Source: Cellulomonas hominis
GTDB lineage: Bacteria; Actinomycetota; Actinomycetes; Actinomycetales; Cellulomonadaceae
Length of the DNA: 64,000 nt
Direction: 5' to 3'
NCBI RefSeq assembly: GCF_014201095.1
Contig: NZ_JACHDN010000001.1
Location: forward strand, 1,116,001 to 1,180,000
Notes under the pieces: model-generated
The model's input: the letters and a program-made list of their open reading frames with translations, nothing else
Database searches by the model: none
Told to the model about the DNA's origin: nothing
Shown here: positions 54,415-63,693 of the stretch, one piece after another
Layout: every line of letters starts with the position of its first letter
How positions within the stretch are numbered: position 1 is the first letter of the stretch
Made by a program: the position numbers and the translations under genes

Positions 54415-55401
54415 GTGAGCCCCGCCCTGCCCTCCGCCGACGGCACCTCGACCGTCGCGCCCGCGACACCCGCCACCCCCGCCCCCGCCGGTCCGGCGGC
54501 CCTCGACCCGCGCGGCCTCGCCGCCGGTACCTCCGCCTACCTGCTGTGGGGCGTGCTGCCGCTGTACTTCGCGCTGCTCAAGCCGTCCGGGGCGATCGAG
54601 ATCGTCGCCCACCGCGTCGTGTGGTCGCTGCTGTTCTGCGCGGTGGCGCTGACCGTGACCCGGTCGTGGCGGTCGTTCGTCGCGGTGCTGCGCGCGCCGC
54701 GGACCATGGGGCTGATCGCTCTCGCGGCCGTGCTGCTGGCGGTCAACTGGCTGGCGTTCGTGTTCGGGACCCTGACCGGGCACGTGGTGGACGCCGCGCT
54801 CGGCTACTTCATCAACCCGATCGTCACCGTGGCCCTCGCCGTCCTCGTGCTGCGCGAGCGGCTGCGCCGGATGCAGTGGGTCGCCCTCGGGTTCGGCGTC
54901 GCGGCGGTGCTGGTCATCACGCTCGGGTACGGGCGGCTGCCGTGGATCGCGCTGACCCTGGCCGGCTCGTTCGGGGTGTACGGCCTGCTGAAGAACCGGG
55001 TCGGCCGGACCGTCGCCGCCGCGCCGGGCCTGGCGGCGGAGACCCTGGTGCTCGTCCCGTTCTCCCTCGCGTACCTCGCGGGGCTCGCGGCCGCCGGCAG
55101 CGGGACGTTCGTCGGCGCCGGCCCGTGGCACGCCCTGGCGCTCGTGGGCACCGGCGTCATCACGGCGCTGCCGCTGCTGCTGTTCGGGGAGGCCGCGCGG
55201 CGGCTGCCGCTCAGCGTGGTGGGGATGCTGCAGTACCTCGCGCCGGTGCTGCAGTTCGCGATCGGGGTGCTGGTGCTGCACGAGTCGATGGCGCCCGCGC
55301 GGTGGTGGGGCTTCGGGCTGGTGTGGGTCGCGCTCGTGCTGCTGACCGTGGACGGGGTGCGGGCGCGCCGGGGGACGGCGCTGCGGGCGGCGGTGCGCTG
55401 A
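54415..55401 (+). CDS. rarD: EamA-family transporter RarD
   Basis: 328 aa, about ten transmembrane helices in two EamA halves after a 38-residue Ala/Pro N-terminus. AAGTSAYLLWGVLPLYFALLKPSGAIEIVAHRVVWSLLF is the RarD signature. FINPIVTVALAVLVLRERL and MLQYLAPVLQFAIGVLVLHESM follow. TAGCGT at 54403-54408 lies 6 bases before the GTG, so the message is probably leaderless. RarD is named from a chloramphenicol-sensitivity locus; the true substrate is unknown. Confidence 0.93.
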   Translation: MSPALPSADGTSTVAPATPATPAPAGPAALDPRGLAAGTSAYLLWGVLPLYFALLKPSGAIEIVAHRVVWSLLFCAVALTVTRSWRSFVAVLRAPRTMGLIALAAVLLAVNWLAFVFGTLTGHVVDAALGYFINPIVTVALAVLVLRERLRRMQWVALGFGVAAVLVITLGYGRLPWIALTLAGSFGVYGLLKNRVGRTVAAAPGLAAETLVLVPFSLAYLAGLAAAGSGTFVGAGPWHALALVGTGVITALPLLLFGEAARRLPLSVVGMLQYLAPVLQFAIGVLVLHESMAPARWWGFGLVWVALVLLTVDGVRARRGTALRAAVR

Positions 55402-55423
55402 GGCCCGCGCCCCCGCGCGACGG

Positions 55424-55990
55424 TCAGCCGCGCGCGGGCGGGAACTGCTCCGCGCCCTGCTTCGCCAGCTCGATCAACCCGGCCAGGTCGGCCGGCGGCT
55501 CCTCGCGATCGGTCGTGAACCCGACCGCCAGCACCCGCCGGTCGTCCAGCGGCAGCACCGCGAACTCGCCCCGGTTGCCGTCCCGGTCCTCGGTCCGCCA
55601 CCCCGAGACGCCCGTGCCCAGGCCCTCGACCGGCTCGATGGACCGCCCGGTGCCGATCGATCGCGCCGAGAGCACGCACTGGTCCGCGGCCGACCGGAAC
55701 GCCTCGAGCAGGTCGTCGGCGTCCTCGCCGCCGCTCGACCCGTCCAGGATGGTCGCGCCGACCGCCGGTCCCCCGCCGATCTCCAGCCACGTCCCCTGCA
55801 CCGGCTCCTCCATGAGGTCCAGCGGGCTCAGCTGCCGGCACCACGTCCACCCCGGGGCGATCGCGTACTCCGTGTTCTGCTCGACGATCGTCACGTCGTC
55901 GAAGTCGTCCTCGGAGAGCACCACGGGCGACGACGAGCAGGCGGACACCAGCGCCACCACGCCGACGAGCGGCAGCCACGGACGTCTCAC
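55424..55990 (-). CDS. Putative lipoprotein at the end of the type VII secretion operon
   Basis: 188 aa. The signal peptide has lipobox LVSACSSS (Cys near residue 18). The mature part contains acidic patches, CRQLSPLDLMEEPVQGTW, a Cys in ADQCVLSARSIG, and LPLDDRRVLAVGFTTDREEPPADL. No family is recognised. Its ATG overlaps the stop of the 784-aa gene (ATGA), so the two are translated together. A role as partner or protective factor for that protein is possible but rests only on coupling. Confidence 0.8.
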   Translation of the reverse strand: MRRPWLPLVGVVALVSACSSSPVVLSEDDFDDVTIVEQNTEYAIAPGWTWCRQLSPLDLMEEPVQGTWLEIGGGPAVGATILDGSSGGEDADDLLEAFRSAADQCVLSARSIGTGRSIEPVEGLGTGVSGWRTEDRDGNRGEFAVLPLDDRRVLAVGFTTDREEPPADLAGLIELAKQGAEQFPPARG

Positions 55991-58341
55991 GGGGTCCCCT
56001 CCGTGCTGATGACACGGTACGGATCCGTGAACGCGCCCTCGATCGTCTCCACGGACACGATCGGCCGCAGGAGGGTGCTCGCCTCGTGCGTCCGCACGCC
56101 GAGGTCGTCGAGCGGGATGTCGCTGACGGACAGCAGCCGGCCGCCCGGCATCCAGGTGTCGCGCATCGTCGCGGGGACCTCCACGACGCCCGCCTCCGCG
56201 AGCGCCAGGAAGCTGGAGACGACCGACCTGGCCCGGCTGTCCAGGTAGGTGTCGGTGGCCTCGGCGCGCGCGGCGTCCTCGTTGCCACCGAAGATCTCGG
56301 TGATCTGACCGCTGGGGATCTTCCGGATCTCGGACCAGGCGGCGTCCGCCAGCTGCTTGCCCGTGGAGCCCGCCACGTCGACGATCATCTCCGCTCCCGG
56401 GACGGGGACGAGGCTCGCCGCCTTGGACACGAGGCCGGTGAACGCGGCGATCTGCTGGTCACGCGACCGCGCCCCCTCGATGTCGATCATGCTGAGCGCC
56501 TCCTGCATGTGGCCCTCGAGCCCCGCGCTGGAGGTGAGCACGTCCTCGAGCGCCTGGTACGTCGCACCTTCGACGCCCGCACCGTGCAGCACCGACCACC
56601 CGCCGATCGCCGTCTGCCGGTAGTTGGCGACGCCCTCGGCGACGCGCGCCATGCCCTCCTCCGTGCTCAGCGCGACCCCGAGGAGGACGTCGAGGTCCTT
56701 GGAGTAGATCTTGGGCTGGTTGTCGAGCGCCGGCAGGAAGTCGTCCTGGATCGTCACGAGACCGGCAGCCCCGTTCGCGGACGTCGGGGTCCCCACCGCG
56801 ATCTGCACGCTCGGCATGTAGTGCTTCAGCAGCGCCCCCAGCGGCTCCGAGGCGCCGGCGGCGTGCTCGGCCGTGAACTGGGGGTTGTCCGGCAGGCGCC
56901 CGAAGAACTCCGACACGAACAGCCCGGTCTTCTCCGGGTCCCCCGCGAGGTTGTCCGCGTCGGTGCCGATCGCGAGCGCCGCCTCGGAGATCCCCGCGAA
57001 CCCGTCCCGGCTCCAGTCCCGCTCGGCGAAGTAGTACCCCGTCCGCTCGGCGCCGTCGGCGTCCGAGAAGAACTCCAGCCCGAGCCCCGGGTGGCGGCCC
57101 AGCTGGCCCATGGCGGCGGCCATCGGGTCGGCCTGGTGGATGCCGTCCCCGTCGACCCCGAGGCCGTTCAGCGGCGACGCGAACGACGCGTGGTGCGTCC
57201 AGGTCTCGGCGCGCAGCGGGTTGCTCCGCTCGAACGCGTCGAGCTCCCAGGCGACGCCGCGCACGAAGTCCTCGCCGTAGTCGCCGTCGCGCAGCAGGTA
57301 GTCGAGGACCGCGGCGTGCTCGCCCTGGGACGGGTAGGCCGCGGAGAACGCGTCCCGCTCGGCGTCGGTGGTGGTGTGGGTGGCGTACCGGACGAGGTCC
57401 TCACCGAACGCCCGGCCGTCGAAGCCGTCCTGGCGGGTGGCGGTCTGGAGGCCGTCGCGCAGCCGGCCCGCGAGGTCCCCGAGCTCCTCGACGTTCGCCC
57501 CGACGTACATCATCGAGGTCATGCCGTTGTACGTGGCGAGCAGGCCGTCGGGGCCGAGCCGCTGGTACATCGGGCCCATGACGTCGGGGTCGTCGCCGAA
57601 CGCGTCGAGCAGCCGGGTGTACCGCTCGACCGCGGCGGCGTCGCCGAACGCCGTGGCGTCGCGGGCGGCGCCGTCGAGCTGCTCCGCGACCTCCTGGCCG
57701 ACCAGCGCCTTGACCTCGGGCGACGTGTGCGCGCCGAGCAGGGCGAAGTCCTCCGGGTGGTCGAGCAGGTGGCGGACCTGGTCGGCCTGCGACAGCTCCT
57801 GGAACTCCAGGACCCGGCGCTGGTCCCCGAGGCTGCCGATCGCGTTGACGTCGGTCGTGGCCGCCGCCCGGAGCACGGCCGCGAGCGCCTGGTCCGCGGC
57901 GTCGGCGTCGCCGAGCGCGGCGGAGACCTGCTCGGCGATCTCGTTCATGACGCCGCGGGCGTAGTCGGCGTCCTCCTCGTCGTCGTACGTCCGGGTGGAG
58001 GTCACCGCGCCGGTGCTCTGGTCGACGCGCAGGCCGTGCCCGCCCGCCCGGCGGATCGCGCCCTCCAGCGAGGTCTGCGCCCGCCGGATCGCGGTCGCGG
58101 CGGCGTCGAGCGCCTCGATGACGCCGACGGTCTCGGACACCTGCGTCGCGAGCCCCTGCGACAACCGGGAGTGCTCCGCCCGGGCGGCCGACGCGTCCGC
58201 GAACGTCCAGGACAGCGGCGGGCGGGCGTCCGCCACGTCGTCGTCGAGCCGGGTGAGGACGCCCCGGTGCCTCGCGACGTCGTCGGCGATCTGCCCGAGG
58301 CGGTCGGGCTGCCAGGTGCTCAGCTGCGCGGGCGTGACCAT
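55987..58341 (-). CDS. Putative type VII secretion substrate, 784 aa (DUF6571-like)
   Basis: A largely helical protein. The first 150 residues form a coiled-coil bundle (QPDRLGQIADDVARHRGVLTRLDDD, SWTFADASAARAEHSRLSQGL) resembling the N-terminal helical pair of WXG/LXG proteins. The middle contains HAAVLDYLLRDGDYGEDFVRGVAWELDAFE and PEKTGLFVSEFFGRLPDNPQF, which recall the actinobacterial DUF6571 family. The end has LVPVPGAEMIVDVAGSTGKQLADAAW. No catalytic motif is evident. It overlaps the 97-aa gene upstream (TGATG) and the lipoprotein downstream (ATGA). A surface-protein or toxin role is inferred from context. Confidence 0.75.
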   Translation of the reverse strand: MVTPAQLSTWQPDRLGQIADDVARHRGVLTRLDDDVADARPPLSWTFADASAARAEHSRLSQGLATQVSETVGVIEALDAAATAIRRAQTSLEGAIRRAGGHGLRVDQSTGAVTSTRTYDDEEDADYARGVMNEIAEQVSAALGDADAADQALAAVLRAAATTDVNAIGSLGDQRRVLEFQELSQADQVRHLLDHPEDFALLGAHTSPEVKALVGQEVAEQLDGAARDATAFGDAAAVERYTRLLDAFGDDPDVMGPMYQRLGPDGLLATYNGMTSMMYVGANVEELGDLAGRLRDGLQTATRQDGFDGRAFGEDLVRYATHTTTDAERDAFSAAYPSQGEHAAVLDYLLRDGDYGEDFVRGVAWELDAFERSNPLRAETWTHHASFASPLNGLGVDGDGIHQADPMAAAMGQLGRHPGLGLEFFSDADGAERTGYYFAERDWSRDGFAGISEAALAIGTDADNLAGDPEKTGLFVSEFFGRLPDNPQFTAEHAAGASEPLGALLKHYMPSVQIAVGTPTSANGAAGLVTIQDDFLPALDNQPKIYSKDLDVLLGVALSTEEGMARVAEGVANYRQTAIGGWSVLHGAGVEGATYQALEDVLTSSAGLEGHMQEALSMIDIEGARSRDQQIAAFTGLVSKAASLVPVPGAEMIVDVAGSTGKQLADAAWSEIRKIPSGQITEIFGGNEDAARAEATDTYLDSRARSVVSSFLALAEAGVVEVPATMRDTWMPGGRLLSVSDIPLDDLGVRTHEASTLLRPIVSVETIEGAFTDPYRVISTEGTP

Positions 58342-58634
58342 CAGAGGACCGCCTGCCGGCCGGCGAAGCGCCGCGCGACGCCCTGGTTCGTCGACTCCCA
58401 GGCCTCGGCGGCGTCCCGCAGGGTCTGGCCCTGCGCGTCGGCGCGGGTGGCCCAGCCGCGGAAGGCCTCGCCCCAGGCGGTGGCCAGCGCGGTCCCGGCA
58501 CCGGCGCTCGCGCTGCCGGGCAGCGCGGAGGCGACGTCGCCCACCTCGTCCGGGACGTGGTCGCGCACGGTGCTCGCGACCTGCTCGATCCGGCCCGCCG
58601 CGGACCGGACGGCCCCGGTGTCGATCTCCCCCAC
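58341..58634 (-). CDS. WXG100-like protein, 97 aa
   Basis: GTG start with AGGGGGAA upstream. Two helices flank a turn around TAWGEAFRGWATRAD near residues 53-67, the place of the WXG motif in ESX proteins. The first helix is AVRSAAGRIEQVASTVRDHV and the second is GQTLRDAAEAWESTNQGVARRF. The size fits the WXG100 family. It overlaps the 784-aa gene by one base, the arrangement expected for an export partner of a larger substrate. Confidence 0.72.
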   Translation of the reverse strand: MGEIDTGAVRSAAGRIEQVASTVRDHVPDEVGDVASALPGSASAGAGTALATAWGEAFRGWATRADAQGQTLRDAAEAWESTNQGVARRFAGRQAVL

Positions 58635-58723
58635 GGTCCCGTTCCCCCTCGTCCGACTGCCGGTCCCGGGCACGAGGGTAGAGCAGAGGTGCCGGTCAGG
58701 CGCGGGATCCACCCGGACGGGCG

Positions 58724-59974
58724 TCAGCCGCGGCGACGGCGGCCGGCCACCCGCGCGGCGAGCGCGGCGAGGAGGACGAGGGTCGTGCCGGCGATCGCCC
58801 ACCACACCGCGGCGCGTCGTGCGCCCGCGAGCGGGTCCACCCGGGGCGTGACGTCGACGGTGCGCGTGGCGGCCGTCGCGGCGGCGTCCACCCGGTGCAC
58901 CGGGCTGGGCGGGCCGAGGGCGGTCCCGTCGTCGACGAACGCCAGCGCCTCCGCCGGCCGGACGACGCCCCAGCCGACCAGGTCGTCCCGCTCGGCGGGC
59001 TGGTCGCGGGCGGCGGTGACCTCGAGGCGGTGCGCCCACTGGGCGGGTGACTCCTCGGGGTACCGCTCGGCGAGCAGCGCCGCCGCCGCGCTGACGTACG
59101 CGGTCGCGTAGCTGGTGGAGACGCTCTCCCCGGACAGCAGGCAGTCCCCGGCCGCGTGGTACGTCGTGAGGATGTTCGTCCCCGGCGCGGCGACATCCAC
59201 GTGCGACCCGTGGATCGCGTCGGCCGACGGGTTGTCGTCGACGTCGACCGCGGTGACCGCGAGCGCGCCGTCGTAGGCCGCCGGGTACCGCGGGCCGTCC
59301 GCCTCGTCGCTGCTCGTCGCCCGGTTGCCGGCGCTCGCGACGACGAGCGCGCCCGCAGCGGTGGCCCGCTCGACGGCCTCGCGCAGTGCGGGGGTGTCGG
59401 TCGGCGTGCTCATCGAGACGTTGACGACCCGCGCGCCGCCCGCGACGGCGGCGTCGATCCCCGCCGCGATCCGCCCGGCGTCGGGGGCCACGCCCTGCTC
59501 CCGCGCCCGGTCGTCGTCGGCGTGGTAGACGCGGACGGGCAGGATCGTCGCGTCGGGGGCGAGGCCGACGACGCCGGAGCCCTCGACCTGCCGGGCGGCG
59601 ATCTGCCCCGCGACCGCGGTGCCGTGCCCGGCGGTGTCCGTGCGGCCGGCCGGGTCGCCGCCGGCGCCGACCAGGTCGACGCCGGGCAGCACCGCCGGGG
59701 TGAGGTGCTCGTTGCCGGCGTCCACGCCGGAGTCCACGACCGCGACGACGACGCCCCGGCCGGTGGCGACGGCCCAGGCGCGCTCGGCGGACAGGCGCCG
59801 CAGGGCCGGCGGGGACTCGGGCGAGTAGGCGACGCGGTCGGGGGTGCACTGCTGGCCACCGGTCGCGGCGGGCAGCGCGGCGGGGGCGGGGGTCGCGGCG
59901 GCGGGAGCGGCCGTGACCGGGGCGAGGAGCAGCGCGGCGGCCACGAGCGCGGCGCGCACCCGGCGGCGACTCAC
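58724..59974 (-). CDS. Type VII secretion-associated serine protease mycosin
   Basis: Membrane-anchored subtilase that stabilises or processes ESX components on the outer face of the membrane. 416 aa from a GTG overlapping the eccB stop (GTGA). A signal peptide occupies about 1-28. The triad is Asp in VVVAVVDSGVDAGNEHL, His in AGHGTAVAGQIAARQ and Ser in VSTSYATAYVSAAAALL. C-terminal transmembrane helix AAVWWAIAGTTLVLLAALAARV and a basic tail. Domain order matches mycosins throughout. Confidence 0.93.
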   Translation of the reverse strand: MSRRRVRAALVAAALLLAPVTAAPAAATPAPAALPAATGGQQCTPDRVAYSPESPPALRRLSAERAWAVATGRGVVVAVVDSGVDAGNEHLTPAVLPGVDLVGAGGDPAGRTDTAGHGTAVAGQIAARQVEGSGVVGLAPDATILPVRVYHADDDRAREQGVAPDAGRIAAGIDAAVAGGARVVNVSMSTPTDTPALREAVERATAAGALVVASAGNRATSSDEADGPRYPAAYDGALAVTAVDVDDNPSADAIHGSHVDVAAPGTNILTTYHAAGDCLLSGESVSTSYATAYVSAAAALLAERYPEESPAQWAHRLEVTAARDQPAERDDLVGWGVVRPAEALAFVDDGTALGPPSPVHRVDAAATAATRTVDVTPRVDPLAGARRAAVWWAIAGTTLVLLAALAARVAGRRRRG

Positions 59975-61350
59975 GCGTCCCCGGCGCCGCCCGACGCCGC
60001 GCTGTCGGCCGCGGTGCCACCGGACACCTCGGTGGCGGCGGCCTCGACCGTGAGCGACGGGCCGGTGGGGAGCAGCGCCGCCCAGGCCGGCGGCACCGGC
60101 GTCACGTCGGCGGCGGTGTACCCGAGCCGGGCGAGCACCTCGTCGCCCGCGTCGGGCACCGGGTAGGCGCGGCCGGAGCCGTCCACCAGGCGCACGGTCG
60201 CGGTGCCCCCGTCGGCGCTCTGCGCCCGCACGAGCGCCCCGGACCCGGGCGCGACGCGCACGCCGGGCTCGGCGCCGCCGTCCCGCAGCACGAGGTCGAC
60301 GCGCTCGGCCTCGCCGGTGCTCAGCACCAGGCACGGCGCGGACCCTGCGGCGGGGAGCGCCGGCACGGTCGCGGGCAGGTCCGCGGGCGCGACGGGGGTG
60401 CCGGAGGTCCGCACGTCGGCGACGTCGGCGGCCGAGACCCGCAGCGGCTCGGCGGCCAGGTCGCCGGCGCCGAGCAGGTAGAGCGGGTAGGCCAGGTCGG
60501 TGAGCGGGGCGAGCTCGCCGCGGGCGTCCACGACGTACCGGCGGACGCCGTCGCCGGTCCCGGAGACCTCGACGAGCGTGCCCACGCGGGTGTCGACGGG
60601 CAGCCCGCCCTGCGGCAGCGCGGCGTCCCCGGCACCCGGGACGGTCAGCGGGGCCAGGTCGGCCCCGACCGGGACCAGGTTCAGCCAGTCGGCGCCCGCG
60701 GTCAGCGGGGTGGCGGTGTCCAGGCCGAGCGCCCGCAGCACGGCGGCCTCGTCGGCGGGCGGGATGCGGTGCCGCACGCCGTCCGCGACCAGGTGCAGCG
60801 TGCCGGCGACGTCCACCAGCACACCCGTGCCCGGACCAGGGGCGACGGCGGGGGCGTCCGGGTCGAGGGCGAGCGTCGTGCTGCCGTCGGTCGCCACGCA
60901 CGCCGCCCAGCCGGTGCGCGTGAGCCGGTCCGCGAGCGGCAGCTCGTCCGGGGCGCCGGGGATGCCGAGGGTCGCTCCGCGCGGGGCGTCGGTGATGTCG
61001 TCCTCGCTGACGTCGACCACGTGGAAGGAGCCGGAGTCCAGCAGCAGGCGCGCGCTCGTCACGTTGAGCACCGGGTGCAGCGTGCCCTGGATGCCCACGT
61101 ACCGGCTGCCGTCGCCCTCGACGATCACCAGGGACTGGTCGTCCCAGCCGTCCGGGAGCGTCGGGCTCAGCAGGCCCAGGCCCAGGCTGCCGAGGACGAG
61201 CAGCACGCTCAGCGAGACGCCGGCGACGACGCCGCGCAGGGGCTTGGTGGGCTCGAGCTCCCGGCCGCCGGGCGCGCCGCTGGTGAACGCGGTGAGCAGC
61301 CGGCGGCGGCTGTAGGACTGGGCCTCGACCAGGTCGCGCTTGGACGCCAC
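59971..61350 (-). CDS. eccB: Type VII secretion core protein EccB
   Basis: Core component of the ESX membrane complex. 459 aa. The cytoplasmic N-terminus begins ASKRDLVEAQSYSRRRLLTAFTSG, the EccB signature. One transmembrane helix lies at about 39-62 (LRGVVAGVSLSVLLVLGSLGLGLL). A large extracytoplasmic repeat domain follows, with SLVIVEGDGSRYVGIQGTLHPVLNVTSARLLL and a Cys pair (WAACVATDG and SAPCLVLS) likely to form the conserved disulfide. It starts one base after the eccD stop. Confidence 0.95.
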   Translation of the reverse strand: MASKRDLVEAQSYSRRRLLTAFTSGAPGGRELEPTKPLRGVVAGVSLSVLLVLGSLGLGLLSPTLPDGWDDQSLVIVEGDGSRYVGIQGTLHPVLNVTSARLLLDSGSFHVVDVSEDDITDAPRGATLGIPGAPDELPLADRLTRTGWAACVATDGSTTLALDPDAPAVAPGPGTGVLVDVAGTLHLVADGVRHRIPPADEAAVLRALGLDTATPLTAGADWLNLVPVGADLAPLTVPGAGDAALPQGGLPVDTRVGTLVEVSGTGDGVRRYVVDARGELAPLTDLAYPLYLLGAGDLAAEPLRVSAADVADVRTSGTPVAPADLPATVPALPAAGSAPCLVLSTGEAERVDLVLRDGGAEPGVRVAPGSGALVRAQSADGGTATVRLVDGSGRAYPVPDAGDEVLARLGYTAADVTPVPPAWAALLPTGPSLTVEAAATEVSGGTAADSAASGGAGDA

Positions 61351-61351
61351 G

Positions 61352-62701
61352 TCAGACCAGGCCCGCCGCGGTCACGCCGAGCGGCAGCAGGAGCGCGAGG
61401 CAGGCGATCTCCAGGAAGTCGCCGAACCGGGCCAGGCCGACCCGCCGGCGGGGCGCCACCAGGCCGAGCCCGACGACGACGGCCGCGGCCGCGCCGGCGA
61501 CCCCGACGAGGGCGGCCCGCCACGACGGGTGCTGCGCGGCGGCGACCACGGCGACGACCACGAGGAGCAGCACCGACAGGCTCACGGTCACCAGCACGTC
61601 GGTCCGGGAGTACGTCTGCCGGGTGGCCAGCAGCAGACCGGCGGCGGCGAGCGCGAGCAGCACCGTCCCGGCGACGCCCGTGGCCACCACGGCGGGCGCC
61701 GACAGGATCGCGACCCCGCCGATCGCCACGCGCAGCGCGACCTGCACGCGGTGCCCGGCGGCGAGCTGCGCGCGCACCCGGGCGGACTCCACGGCCGGCG
61801 GGTCGGCGAGGATCTCGGCGTCGTCGCGCGGCGAGACCACCCGCAGCGGCGTGCTCGACAGCGCGAGCCACGGCACGCCGATGCTCGCGGTGGCGAGCAC
61901 GGCCACCACGACCGCGAGCACCGCGCCCGGGGTCGCGCCGGTCAGGGCGATCGTGGTCCCGGCGACGGCGGTCGCCAGGCCGGCGGCCAGCGGCGCGGCG
62001 GCCAGCTCGCGGCGGCCGACGAGCGCGGGCATGCCCAGCAGTCCGGCGACCAGGGCGCCCGTCCCGGCGAGGGCGGCGGGCCAGCCCCACGACGGGGGCT
62101 CCGCGGTCGCGGTCAGCCCGGCGACGCCGGCGAGCACCGGCGCGACCAGCACGAGCACCTGCCCGGCGGCGGGCTCCGCGCCCACCCGGCCGACGACGGC
62201 CCCGGCGGCCAGCGCGAGCACGGCGGCCAGCGCGGCGACCACGGGCGGGACGAGCGAGGCGCGGTCGGCGCCGAGCAGCAGCGCGGCACCCGCGAGGAGC
62301 AGGGCTGCGGCCGCCCAGGCGGCGCTCAGCGCGGAGTCGCGCGGCGTCCAGGGCGCGTACTGGTCCTCGACGGCGTCGGCCACGGCCTCCACGACGTCGT
62401 CGTAGACCCGTTCCTGCGCCCGCCGGGCGCCCGACTCGAGCGTGAGCACGGCGCCGTCCCCCACGCCCTCGGCCAGCAGGCTACGGGCGGAGTCCAGCGC
62501 GGTCCCGTCCGCGCGTACCAGGCGGTAGCCGCCGTGGGCGGTGGTCGCGTCCAGCAGGCCGAGCGCGCGCGCCAGGCCGGGGACGACCTCCGCGGTGGGG
62601 ACCGCACCCGGGATGCCGAGGTCGATCCGGCGCTCGCCGGCGGTCACCGACACCCGCACGAGCGTCCCCACGGACGTCGCGACGGCGGGTGCTTCTGTCA
62701 T
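61352..62701 (-). CDS. eccD: Type VII secretion integral membrane protein EccD
   Basis: 449 aa. The N-terminal 85 residues form a ubiquitin-like (YukD) domain: VGTLVRVSVTAGERRIDLGIPGAVPTAEVVPGLARALG. Eleven or so transmembrane helices follow from residue 130 (ALSAAWAAAALLLAGAALLL, AALAAVLALAAGAVVG and later ones). The ATG has AGGGGA upstream. Probably the first gene of a six-gene minus-strand operon. TATGCT at 62742-62737 could be its -10. Confidence 0.93.
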   Translation of the reverse strand: MTEAPAVATSVGTLVRVSVTAGERRIDLGIPGAVPTAEVVPGLARALGLLDATTAHGGYRLVRADGTALDSARSLLAEGVGDGAVLTLESGARRAQERVYDDVVEAVADAVEDQYAPWTPRDSALSAAWAAAALLLAGAALLLGADRASLVPPVVAALAAVLALAAGAVVGRVGAEPAAGQVLVLVAPVLAGVAGLTATAEPPSWGWPAALAGTGALVAGLLGMPALVGRRELAAAPLAAGLATAVAGTTIALTGATPGAVLAVVVAVLATASIGVPWLALSSTPLRVVSPRDDAEILADPPAVESARVRAQLAAGHRVQVALRVAIGGVAILSAPAVVATGVAGTVLLALAAAGLLLATRQTYSRTDVLVTVSLSVLLLVVVAVVAAAQHPSWRAALVGVAGAAAAVVVGLGLVAPRRRVGLARFGDFLEIACLALLLPLGVTAAGLV

Positions 62702-62954
62702 CGGGTCCCCTGTGTTCCCTGGGCAGGTCGCGGGCCAGCATAGCGACGGCCGCCGATCCCGCTCGCCGGGGCACGGGCGGGTGCGGCCGTCCGGGTGGCG
62801 GTGCCGGGCGGCCGCCCGGACGGCGGTCCCCCGCTCGGAGGTGCGCCAACCGGGCAAAGGGGACGCGGCATGACAGAACCGCCCGGACGGCTGGGCCGAT
62901 CGGGTGATCCGTGACACCAGTCAGCATGGTTGTCCACAGGCTGGGTGACCTGGG

Positions 62955-63078: not shown

Positions 63079-63390
63079 ATGGCAGCAGAGGTCTCCGCAG
63101 CAGACGGCGCGCTCAAGCAGGGCGCCGACGCCGTGGTCCAGAGCCGTGGGGAGCTGCAGCGCGAGCTGAGCGCTCTCGAGGGCAAGCTGTCCGGGATCGG
63201 GTCGCACTGGCAGGGCCAGGGCGCGGTGGCGTTCAACACGCTGATGGCCCGGTGGCGCGACGACGCGAACAAGATCGTGTCCGCGCTCAACGAGTTCGAG
63301 GCCAACCTGCTCGCGTCGCAGTCGACGTACACCGCGTCGGACGAGGCTCAGCAGTCCACCTTCAGCCGCCTTCAGGGCCGGCTGGGCTGA
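63079..63390 (+). CDS. WXG100 family protein (ESAT-6/CFP-10-like), 103 aa
   Basis: Secreted helical-hairpin substrate of type VII secretion. The turn motif is WQG in SGIGSHWQGQGAVAFNTLMARW near residue 44. The C-terminal helix carries a YxxxD/E-type export signal: YTASDEAQQSTF. AGGGGGAGG precedes the ATG. Paired with the next gene 18 bases downstream, as EsxB/EsxA pairs are. Confidence 0.94.
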   Translation: MAAEVSAADGALKQGADAVVQSRGELQRELSALEGKLSGIGSHWQGQGAVAFNTLMARWRDDANKIVSALNEFEANLLASQSTYTASDEAQQSTFSRLQGRLG

Positions 63391-63408: not shown

Positions 63409-63693
63409 ATGGCTGATCTCAAGGTCAACTTCGGGGGTCTGTCGACCGCCGCCGCCGACATCCAGTCGAGCGCGAGCAACATCGAGTCCCGCCTGGCAGA
63501 CCTCGACCGCTCGCTGCAGCCGCTCCGGGCCAACTGGTCCGGCGAGGCGTCGACCGCCTACACGGCCGCCAAGGCCAAGTGGGAGGCCGCGCTGACGGAC
63601 ATGAAGGCGCTGCTCGCCGACGTCGGCCGCGCCGTGTCCACCTCCGGCGAGGACTACCAGTCCACCGAGCGGGCCAACGCCGCCCGCTGGTGA
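63409..63693 (+). CDS. WXG100 family protein (ESAT-6/CFP-10-like), 94 aa
   Basis: Partner of the preceding protein. WSG motif in QPLRANWSGEASTAYTAAKAKW near residue 43. C-terminal YQSTERANAARW resembles the YxxxD/E export signal with Glu. GGAGAGGA lies upstream of the ATG. The two are expected to form a heterodimer recognised by EccC, which is not in the window. Confidence 0.94.
   Translation: MADLKVNFGGLSTAAADIQSSASNIESRLADLDRSLQPLRANWSGEASTAYTAAKAKWEAALTDMKALLADVGRAVSTSGEDYQSTERANAARW

Follow-up and report, generated by a model that had tools for sequence, protein, structure and literature searches.

A probable accessory type VII effector-immunity cassette with a DUF6571-related cargo and a lipoprotein in Cellulomonas hominis

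Described type VII toxins and the Cellulomonas trio

The papers found on antibacterial type VII toxins deal, judging by titles and abstracts, almost entirely with Bacillota, one exception being an LXG-fused alarmone synthetase of Amycolatopsis treated in passages of PMC12691689. In the 64,000-nucleotide (nt) stretch of the Cellulomonas hominis genome analysed here (hereinafter, the window), three overlapping genes beside a type VII secretion locus encode a 97-amino-acid (97-aa) small protein, a 784-aa protein and a 188-aa lipoprotein. Comparisons of sequences suggest that this trio is probably an accessory polymorphic type VII effector-immunity cassette, i.e., an exported antibacterial toxin with its small partner and a lipoprotein that would protect from it.

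Among the closest described systems are the LXG toxins of type VIIb, such as TelC/TipC and the nuclease EsaD/EsaG. The gene order of the trio is the same as that of the LXG clusters in the relevant passages of PMC10730906, and a distant carrier of the DUF6571 core (locus L133) has an NS_2 nuclease; in contrast, the window protein has no LXG match, contains a DUF6571 core and belongs to a type VIIa host (EccB, EccC, EccD and mycosin). No link to TipC was found for the window lipoprotein, which has no Pfam match, in a comparison made by Pfam only and not directly with TipC. The phospholipase TslA and its immunity lipoprotein TilA, as presented in parts of PMC10730906, share with the trio the lipoprotein immunity, the variable lipoprotein copies and the polymorphic toxin domain, whereas TslA has the reverse domain order and lipase activity and the window proteins have no family match. 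The WXG-linked polymorphic toxins (Zhang, Iyer, Aravind and others 2012, PMC3482391) are similarly type VII-linked and possess exchangeable C-termini and immunity genes, but the pertinent passages of that work make no mention of a DUF6571 core or of exported lipoprotein immunity. Finally, AaEAS, the LXG-fused alarmone synthetase of Amycolatopsis azurea, is another type VII-linked actinobacterial toxin, although it has, according to passages of PMC12691689, a known enzyme domain, an LXG N-terminus and growth inhibition from the cytoplasm. By analogy, the trio may work like the LXG and TslA effector-immunity clusters. Its parts in the window are the following:

58341-58634, - strand: gene for the 97-aa ESX-like small partner (GTG start, VGEIDTG...)
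58339-58343, - strand: TGATG stop-start overlap of the 97-aa and 784-aa genes
55987-58341, - strand: gene for the 784-aa cargo, a divergent DUF6571 relative (by open reading frame, ORF, and family searches)
57847-58341, - strand: N-terminal secretion-type module of the cargo, residues 1-165 (by hhalign to the hydrolase family of the second trio described below)
56947-57609, - strand: DUF6571 carrier core, residues 245-465 (by invariant residues in 17 sequences)
55987-56946, - strand: variable C-terminal part, residues 466-784, the presumed effector part (by pair comparisons)
55987-55990, - strand: GTGA stop-start overlap of the 784-aa and lipoprotein genes
55424-55990, - strand: gene for the 188-aa lipoprotein, the presumed immunity protein (VSAC lipobox, GTG start)

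The coupling of the three genes on one strand, proposed in the initial annotation, was confirmed from the ORF coordinates. Of the overlaps given there, TGATG between the 97-aa and 784-aa genes was found as claimed, while ATGA has to be replaced by GTGA for the cargo and lipoprotein genes; GGAGGGG lies at 56002-55996, 5 nt upstream of the GTG start of the lipoprotein.

The cargo, its two halves and its partners

The database search returned 51 proteins including the window's own, the other 50 being 42-79% identical to it, with 46 of them spanning at least 95% of the 784-aa query. The Pfam scan of the 784-aa protein gave no match up to E 1, including none to the LXG domain; PE/PPE identity was rejected, as no PPE match appeared up to E 1. 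PF20211 (DUF6571), a Pfam family without assigned function on which no paper was found by name in the openly licensed literature, scored above its cut-off in five relatives scanned, all of them labelled so beforehand, and was not found in two other relatives scanned; the proteins P0029, P0033, P0040 and P0043, 48-53% identical over 99-100% of the query, reach 32-48.5 bits. Since relatives pass the PF20211 cut-off while the window protein falls under it, the latter is, by this comparison, a divergent relative of DUF6571. The start Met and the core residues D251, E371, W381, D405, P406, P418, R441, W443 and D446 are invariant in 17 sequences, including the toxin carriers. Profile searches of solved structures with A1 (the alignment of window-type 784-aa proteins, used for the pair comparisons), A2 and the lipoproteins A3 yielded nothing below E 0.1.

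The same genome contains a second trio (G000:C1, about 4,429,440-4,432,050; L039:7941-10549) encoding a small protein of 105 aa, a large one of 560 aa and a lipoprotein of 186 aa, where the 560-aa protein joins the same N-terminal module to a C-terminal alpha/beta-hydrolase (PF06259, E 8.4e-39). No paper on DUF1023 with type VII secretion was found in the openly licensed literature. Residues 1-165 of the window cargo match the N-terminus of this hydrolase family (hhalign 99.87%, E 1.5e-31), and residues 166-784 gave no hhalign match to it. Conversely, over its middle and C-terminus the cargo matches L144/L145, DUF6571 proteins from another family of the class (E 1.1e-48 and 4.5e-55), whose N-termini did not match that of the window protein; this N-terminus was unmatched by hhalign in several DUF6571 groups. 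The cargo thus appears to be built of two exchangeable halves.

The partners differ along the same division. The L144/L145 lipoproteins match the window type (97.09%, E 6.3e-11, 175 columns), and the lipoprotein of the second trio is LppA (PF16708; 92.3 bits against a cut-off of 26.4, E 4e-26), which is confined to pathogenic Mycobacterium according to its Pfam description and gave a probability of only 0.06 against the window lipoprotein type in hhalign. Across 248 genomes of the window's order, a hydrolase of the second-trio type is located within 1.5 kb of 20 of the 27 LppA matches. These module matches of the hydrolase family, L144/L145 and the lipoprotein types suggest a tendency for the N-terminus to accompany the small partner and for the C-terminus to accompany the lipoprotein. 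At the seven full-length loci, the small partner correlates more with the cargo N-terminus (Spearman 0.61) than with the C-terminus (0.32).

The partner gene stands immediately upstream of the cargo gene at all seven full-length loci, with the start region conserved at six and the Actinotalea partner called shorter. The label "WXG100-like" is retained for the 97-aa protein as a likeness and not as membership: it reaches 13.1 bits with the Pfam WXG100 profile, whose cut-off is 27.3, and 17.2 bits with TIGR03930, whose cut-off is 44.85, and was rejected as a WXG100 protein proper. The C-terminal ESX motif YxxxD/E, named as an export motif in passages of PMC10730906, is absent from it, with WESTN in its place; W-x-x-x-N/D occurs in all seven partners where the WXG100 proteins of the locus have Y-x-x-x-D/E.

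Known toxin domains were found on the DUF6571 core in more distant, Jiangella-type carriers. L132 combines PF20211 (32 bits) with the ADP-ribosyltransferase PF03496 (61 bits), and L133 combines PF20211 (35 bits) with the NS_2 endonuclease PF13930 (45 bits). Among the 65 hits listed for L133, itself included, 19 bear PF20211 together with PF13930 (14), PF03496 (3) or PF15648 (2). By eye, the Jiangella-type members have a short, hydrophobic, pretoxin-like segment, after which their C-termini differ widely. The Pfam scan of L134, L140 and L148 gave no toxin match, and toxin-like features in the C-termini of these three and of L158 were seen by eye only. Hydropathy over 19 residues peaks at 1.44 in the window protein and at 0.54-2.08 across 52 sequences, at residues 600-700 in 27 of them; a membrane-spanning toxin segment or pore is not claimed, because these peaks are only moderate.

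The C-terminal part also varies between close relatives. Pairs in A1 near-identical up to residue ~465 drop to 40-60% past ~510, as in P0002/P0005 (identity 1.00, then 0.62), while some pairs, such as P0001/P0007 (0.61, then 0.75), are reversed; pairs alike on opposite sides form a pattern as would be expected from recombination. In whole-length nearest-neighbour pairs, the N-terminal side was more alike in 24 of 27 and the C-terminal side in 3; the closest pairs break sharply, for the most part around residue 460-525. In particular syntenic comparisons, the lipoprotein changes as well. Thus, in the second-trio family, the genomes G194 and G198 share the upstream gene (97%), the partner (95%), the downstream gene (98%) and effector residues 1-250 (94-98%), in contrast to 54-70% for residues 251-550 and 44% for the lipoprotein. 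In the window type, C. pakistanensis and G186 are 96%, 79% and 95% identical in flanking genes, 86% in the partner and 86-94% in effector residues 1-200, as against 38-62% in the remainder and 43% in the lipoprotein. The comparison with the C. hominis genus-mate (flanks 84-91%) gave a weaker contrast inside the cargo.

In the window lipoprotein family, all 12 sequences aligned retain C51 and C105, and second copies of the gene occur at three of the seven full-length loci. Out of the 81 genomes of the genus, seven encode the family, namely, all six with a full-length cargo and G198, whose remnant, at the window's own site, aligns to lipoprotein residues 40-188 and has no signal peptide.

Neighbourhood, distribution and the type VII locus

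For the neighbourhood survey, 46 DUF6571 loci were hand-picked among those retrieved, genes were called with a home-made caller whose codon model came from 9 ORFs of the window, and our own hydropathy rule served to score export; L093, L139 and the second match in L095 (no gene called) were not counted, and flanks were not covered for several matches (e.g., G037, G059, G062, G085, G172, G173, G177 and G192). A small ORF precedes the large gene at 40 of the 46 loci, with a gap of at most 15 nt in 30, and a downstream gene is present at 38, its product carrying an export signal or anchor in 34 and none in four. These four are the Jiangella-type loci L132, L133, L140 and L148, two of them with identified toxins. 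A small ORF before the large gene combined with an exported product after it was counted by hand at 29 of the 46 loci versus 14 of 85 controls, i.e., genes for 500-900 aa in the same regions, which may include a few type VII cargos (P 1.4e-7; kinship is ignored in this and all P values). The same test gave six exported proteins and one locus without a downstream gene for the hydrolase family (n=7), and, for 14 loci left out as near-duplicates or poorly called, four exported proteins, six without a signal (five Jiangella-type and L136) and four without a downstream gene. In L136, an ESX-like small gene, recognised by eye, lies downstream and not upstream of the large DUF6571-hit gene.

The location of the downstream protein appears, in these comparisons, to follow the type of the C-terminus. 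An exported protector in the window type and an unexported one for nuclease and ADP-ribosyltransferase carriers are what site-dependent immunity, described for EsaG and TipC in passages of PMC12744356, predicts. In this respect, the suggestion of the initial annotation that the lipoprotein is a protective factor finds support.

The family occurred only alongside type VII-like ATPases, three of the matches being borderline. The ATPase thresholds, in the genus a best E below 1e-75 to TIGR03924, were our own choice, as this profile also meets FtsK in control genomes; in the class, at most three candidates per genome were scored. All 29 of the 81 genus genomes with A1 hits have a type VII-like ATPase, and the 14 genus genomes under the threshold gave no A1 hit. 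PF20211 hits occur in 38 of 296 class genomes, of which 35 match the ATPase clearly, at E below 1e-90, and three are borderline (about 1e-68); none were found in the 94 class genomes without an ATPase match or with E above 1e-62. Hence the family was not found to be widespread without type VII genes or partners in these samples, in view of this co-occurrence and of the small ORF at most surveyed loci, and the view of the 784-aa protein as a type VII cargo with a small partner is supported by comparison. Occurrence without type VII was rejected also for G041, G057, G115 and G148, which have no EccD match yet have EccC/EssC-like ATPase matches; the two such ATPases scored, L048 and L089, are under the equivalog cut-offs. 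G041 (L048) and G057 (L099) suggest a form of type VII system in which no EccD can be recognised. DUF6571 trios were also observed near ATPase-like proteins of ~1534-1574 aa in L048, L057, L089, L097, L099 and L160; those of L048 and L089, the two that were scored, are EssC/EccC-like.

The other features of the locus in the window are as follows:

61352-62917 (start approximate), - strand: eccD (TIGR03920, 97.9 bits, passes the NCBIfam cut-off)
59971-61350, - strand: eccB (TIGR03919, 195.7 bits, passes the NCBIfam cut-off)
58724-59998 (start approximate), - strand: mycosin gene mycP (TIGR03921, 257.1 bits, just under the cut-off of 278.75)
63079-63390, + strand: WXG100 protein with C-terminal YTASD (by profile match and sequence)
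63409-63693, + strand: WXG100 protein with C-terminal YQSTE (by profile match and sequence)
54415-55401, + strand: EamA-like transporter (named by eye), the right flank of the accessory site

The order on the - strand is eccD, eccB, mycosin, 97-aa ORF, 784-aa ORF and lipoprotein. The mycosin gene does not overlap the 97-aa gene, 89 nt lying between the two, and the position at the end of the type VII operon holds in this genome and not as a conserved trait: only two of the seven full-length loci (the window and Actinotalea, L005) stand beside type VII core genes, none of which was found at the other five within the 8.7-22 kb examined. Beyond the window, the same locus encodes a 1325-aa EccC (914.8 bits to TIGR03924) and, after the WXG100 pair (L038:3835-6996), closely spaced genes for a 122-aa protein, a second mycosin-like protease (107.1 bits to TIGR03921, under the cut-off) and a 500-aa protein. 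In G198, the second mycosin-like gene is, by eye, apparently duplicated in tandem (L201:8457-12846). PADLOC found no system, and the plasmid comparison gave no match.

The insertion site flanked by mycP and the EamA-like gene (window 55401-58724) is variable across L041, L040, L043, L047 and L201. It is empty in the C. hominis genus-mate, whereas in C. pakistanensis it is occupied by a protein of 2326 aa encoded on the opposite strand and in G050 and G099 by an RDD/FHA-like protein (named by eye). In G198, where the flanking proteins are 80-86% identical to the window's, it contains nothing but the lipoprotein fragment. Because the site is empty or otherwise occupied in genus-mates, the trio is, on comparative grounds, an accessory cassette. 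The presumption that the 784-aa protein is the dedicated cargo of this system is therefore not supported in that wording, the more so since a second trio resides in the same genome.

Explanations weighed and their meaning

In the mechanism considered probable, the 97-aa protein and residues ~1-165 of the cargo would jointly form the export signal, and the cargo would leave through this type VII system as a complex with the small partner. Residues ~245-465, whose conservation is evident, would serve as the DUF6571 carrier core, and the fast-changing C-terminal part would bear the toxic activity. The lipoprotein gene is coupled to the 3' end of the cargo gene, beside the presumed toxic end; its product would be anchored on the membrane's outer face, bind the toxic end and shield the producer and its kin. 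An exported protector points to a toxin whose site of action is probably the membrane or wall and not the cytoplasm, and whose C-terminal activity may be new.

Several observations weigh against the effector-immunity explanation. PF20211 searched against six frames of the own genome gave the 784-aa frame 24.4 bits, whereas the cut-off is 27. The 14 pairs whose N-termini are at least 85% identical were all more alike left of the best break (log-likelihood gain 13.6-122.5), but they had been picked by N-terminal likeness, which favours such a result, and share members (21 proteins); pairs picked by C-terminal likeness went in the same direction in 23 of 31 cases and were reversed in eight. The breaks in the 14 pairs, at residues 210-227, 373 or 462-525, do not form one fixed junction. 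C-termini within the window clade, ~40-60% identical, are still homologous, and it is in distant relatives alone that known toxins take their place. For the lipoprotein, the correlations with the N- and C-terminus are equal (Spearman 0.65/0.66, seven full-length loci), which does not discriminate, and therefore its linkage to the C-terminus rests on particular pairs. At three of these loci the adjacent "lipoprotein" carries a hydrophobic anchor without a lipobox. By our own criteria, six of the 46 surveyed loci have no small upstream ORF and eight have no downstream gene. Controls had a downstream gene in 48 of 85 cases, exported in 22.

The strongest rival, which we nevertheless consider unlikely, is surface display or recognition, in which the cargo would be an exported adhesin, kin-recognition or structural protein whose C-terminus varies in response to phage or antigenic pressure, while the lipoprotein would be the partner to which it docks on the producer. 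An exported and anchored downstream partner, the absence of a recognised catalytic motif (no Pfam match) in the window C-terminus and the persisting homology of C-termini within the clade agree with display; the same core is, however, joined to an ADP-ribosyltransferase or nuclease in relatives, where the downstream protein has no export signal, and the second lipoprotein copies together with the cargo-less remnant fit immunity better than docking. The alpha/beta-hydrolase domain of the second trio might bring to mind an enzyme that works outside the cell in nutrition or in remodelling the wall, the lipoprotein being its chaperone or regulator, but this is quite improbable: a housekeeping enzyme would not be expected to diverge in its C-terminus jointly with the lipoprotein where the loci are nearly identical in other respects, nor would one expect the sporadic presence, with a full-length cargo in 6 of the 81 genus genomes. 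A role of the trio as an accessory component of the secretion apparatus, and not as cargo, is the least credible of all, since, despite its position after mycP here and between the WXG pair and the start of eccD in Actinotalea, no core gene lies near five of the seven full-length loci, full-length relatives were found in only four of 46 EccD-positive genomes (in a family sample of 150 genomes), and the site is empty in the C. hominis genus-mate.

A broader version of the effector-immunity explanation is put forward tentatively, as a possibility that we would not yet call probable. It assumes a whole class of antibacterial effectors of actinobacterial type VIIa systems in which an ESX-type module is combined with exchangeable cores (DUF6571 or alpha/beta-hydrolase) and whose members are each countered, outside the membrane, by anchored lipoproteins dedicated to this task; the window C-terminus would then be a new kind of surface-acting toxin, and LppA-like families would be the immunity proteins of hydrolase effectors. 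If the effector-immunity explanation is true, DUF6571 would receive a role, and actinobacterial type VIIa systems would gain an antibacterial cargo against which exported lipoproteins protect. A testable role is thereby suggested for lipoprotein families of Actinobacteria, including LppA.

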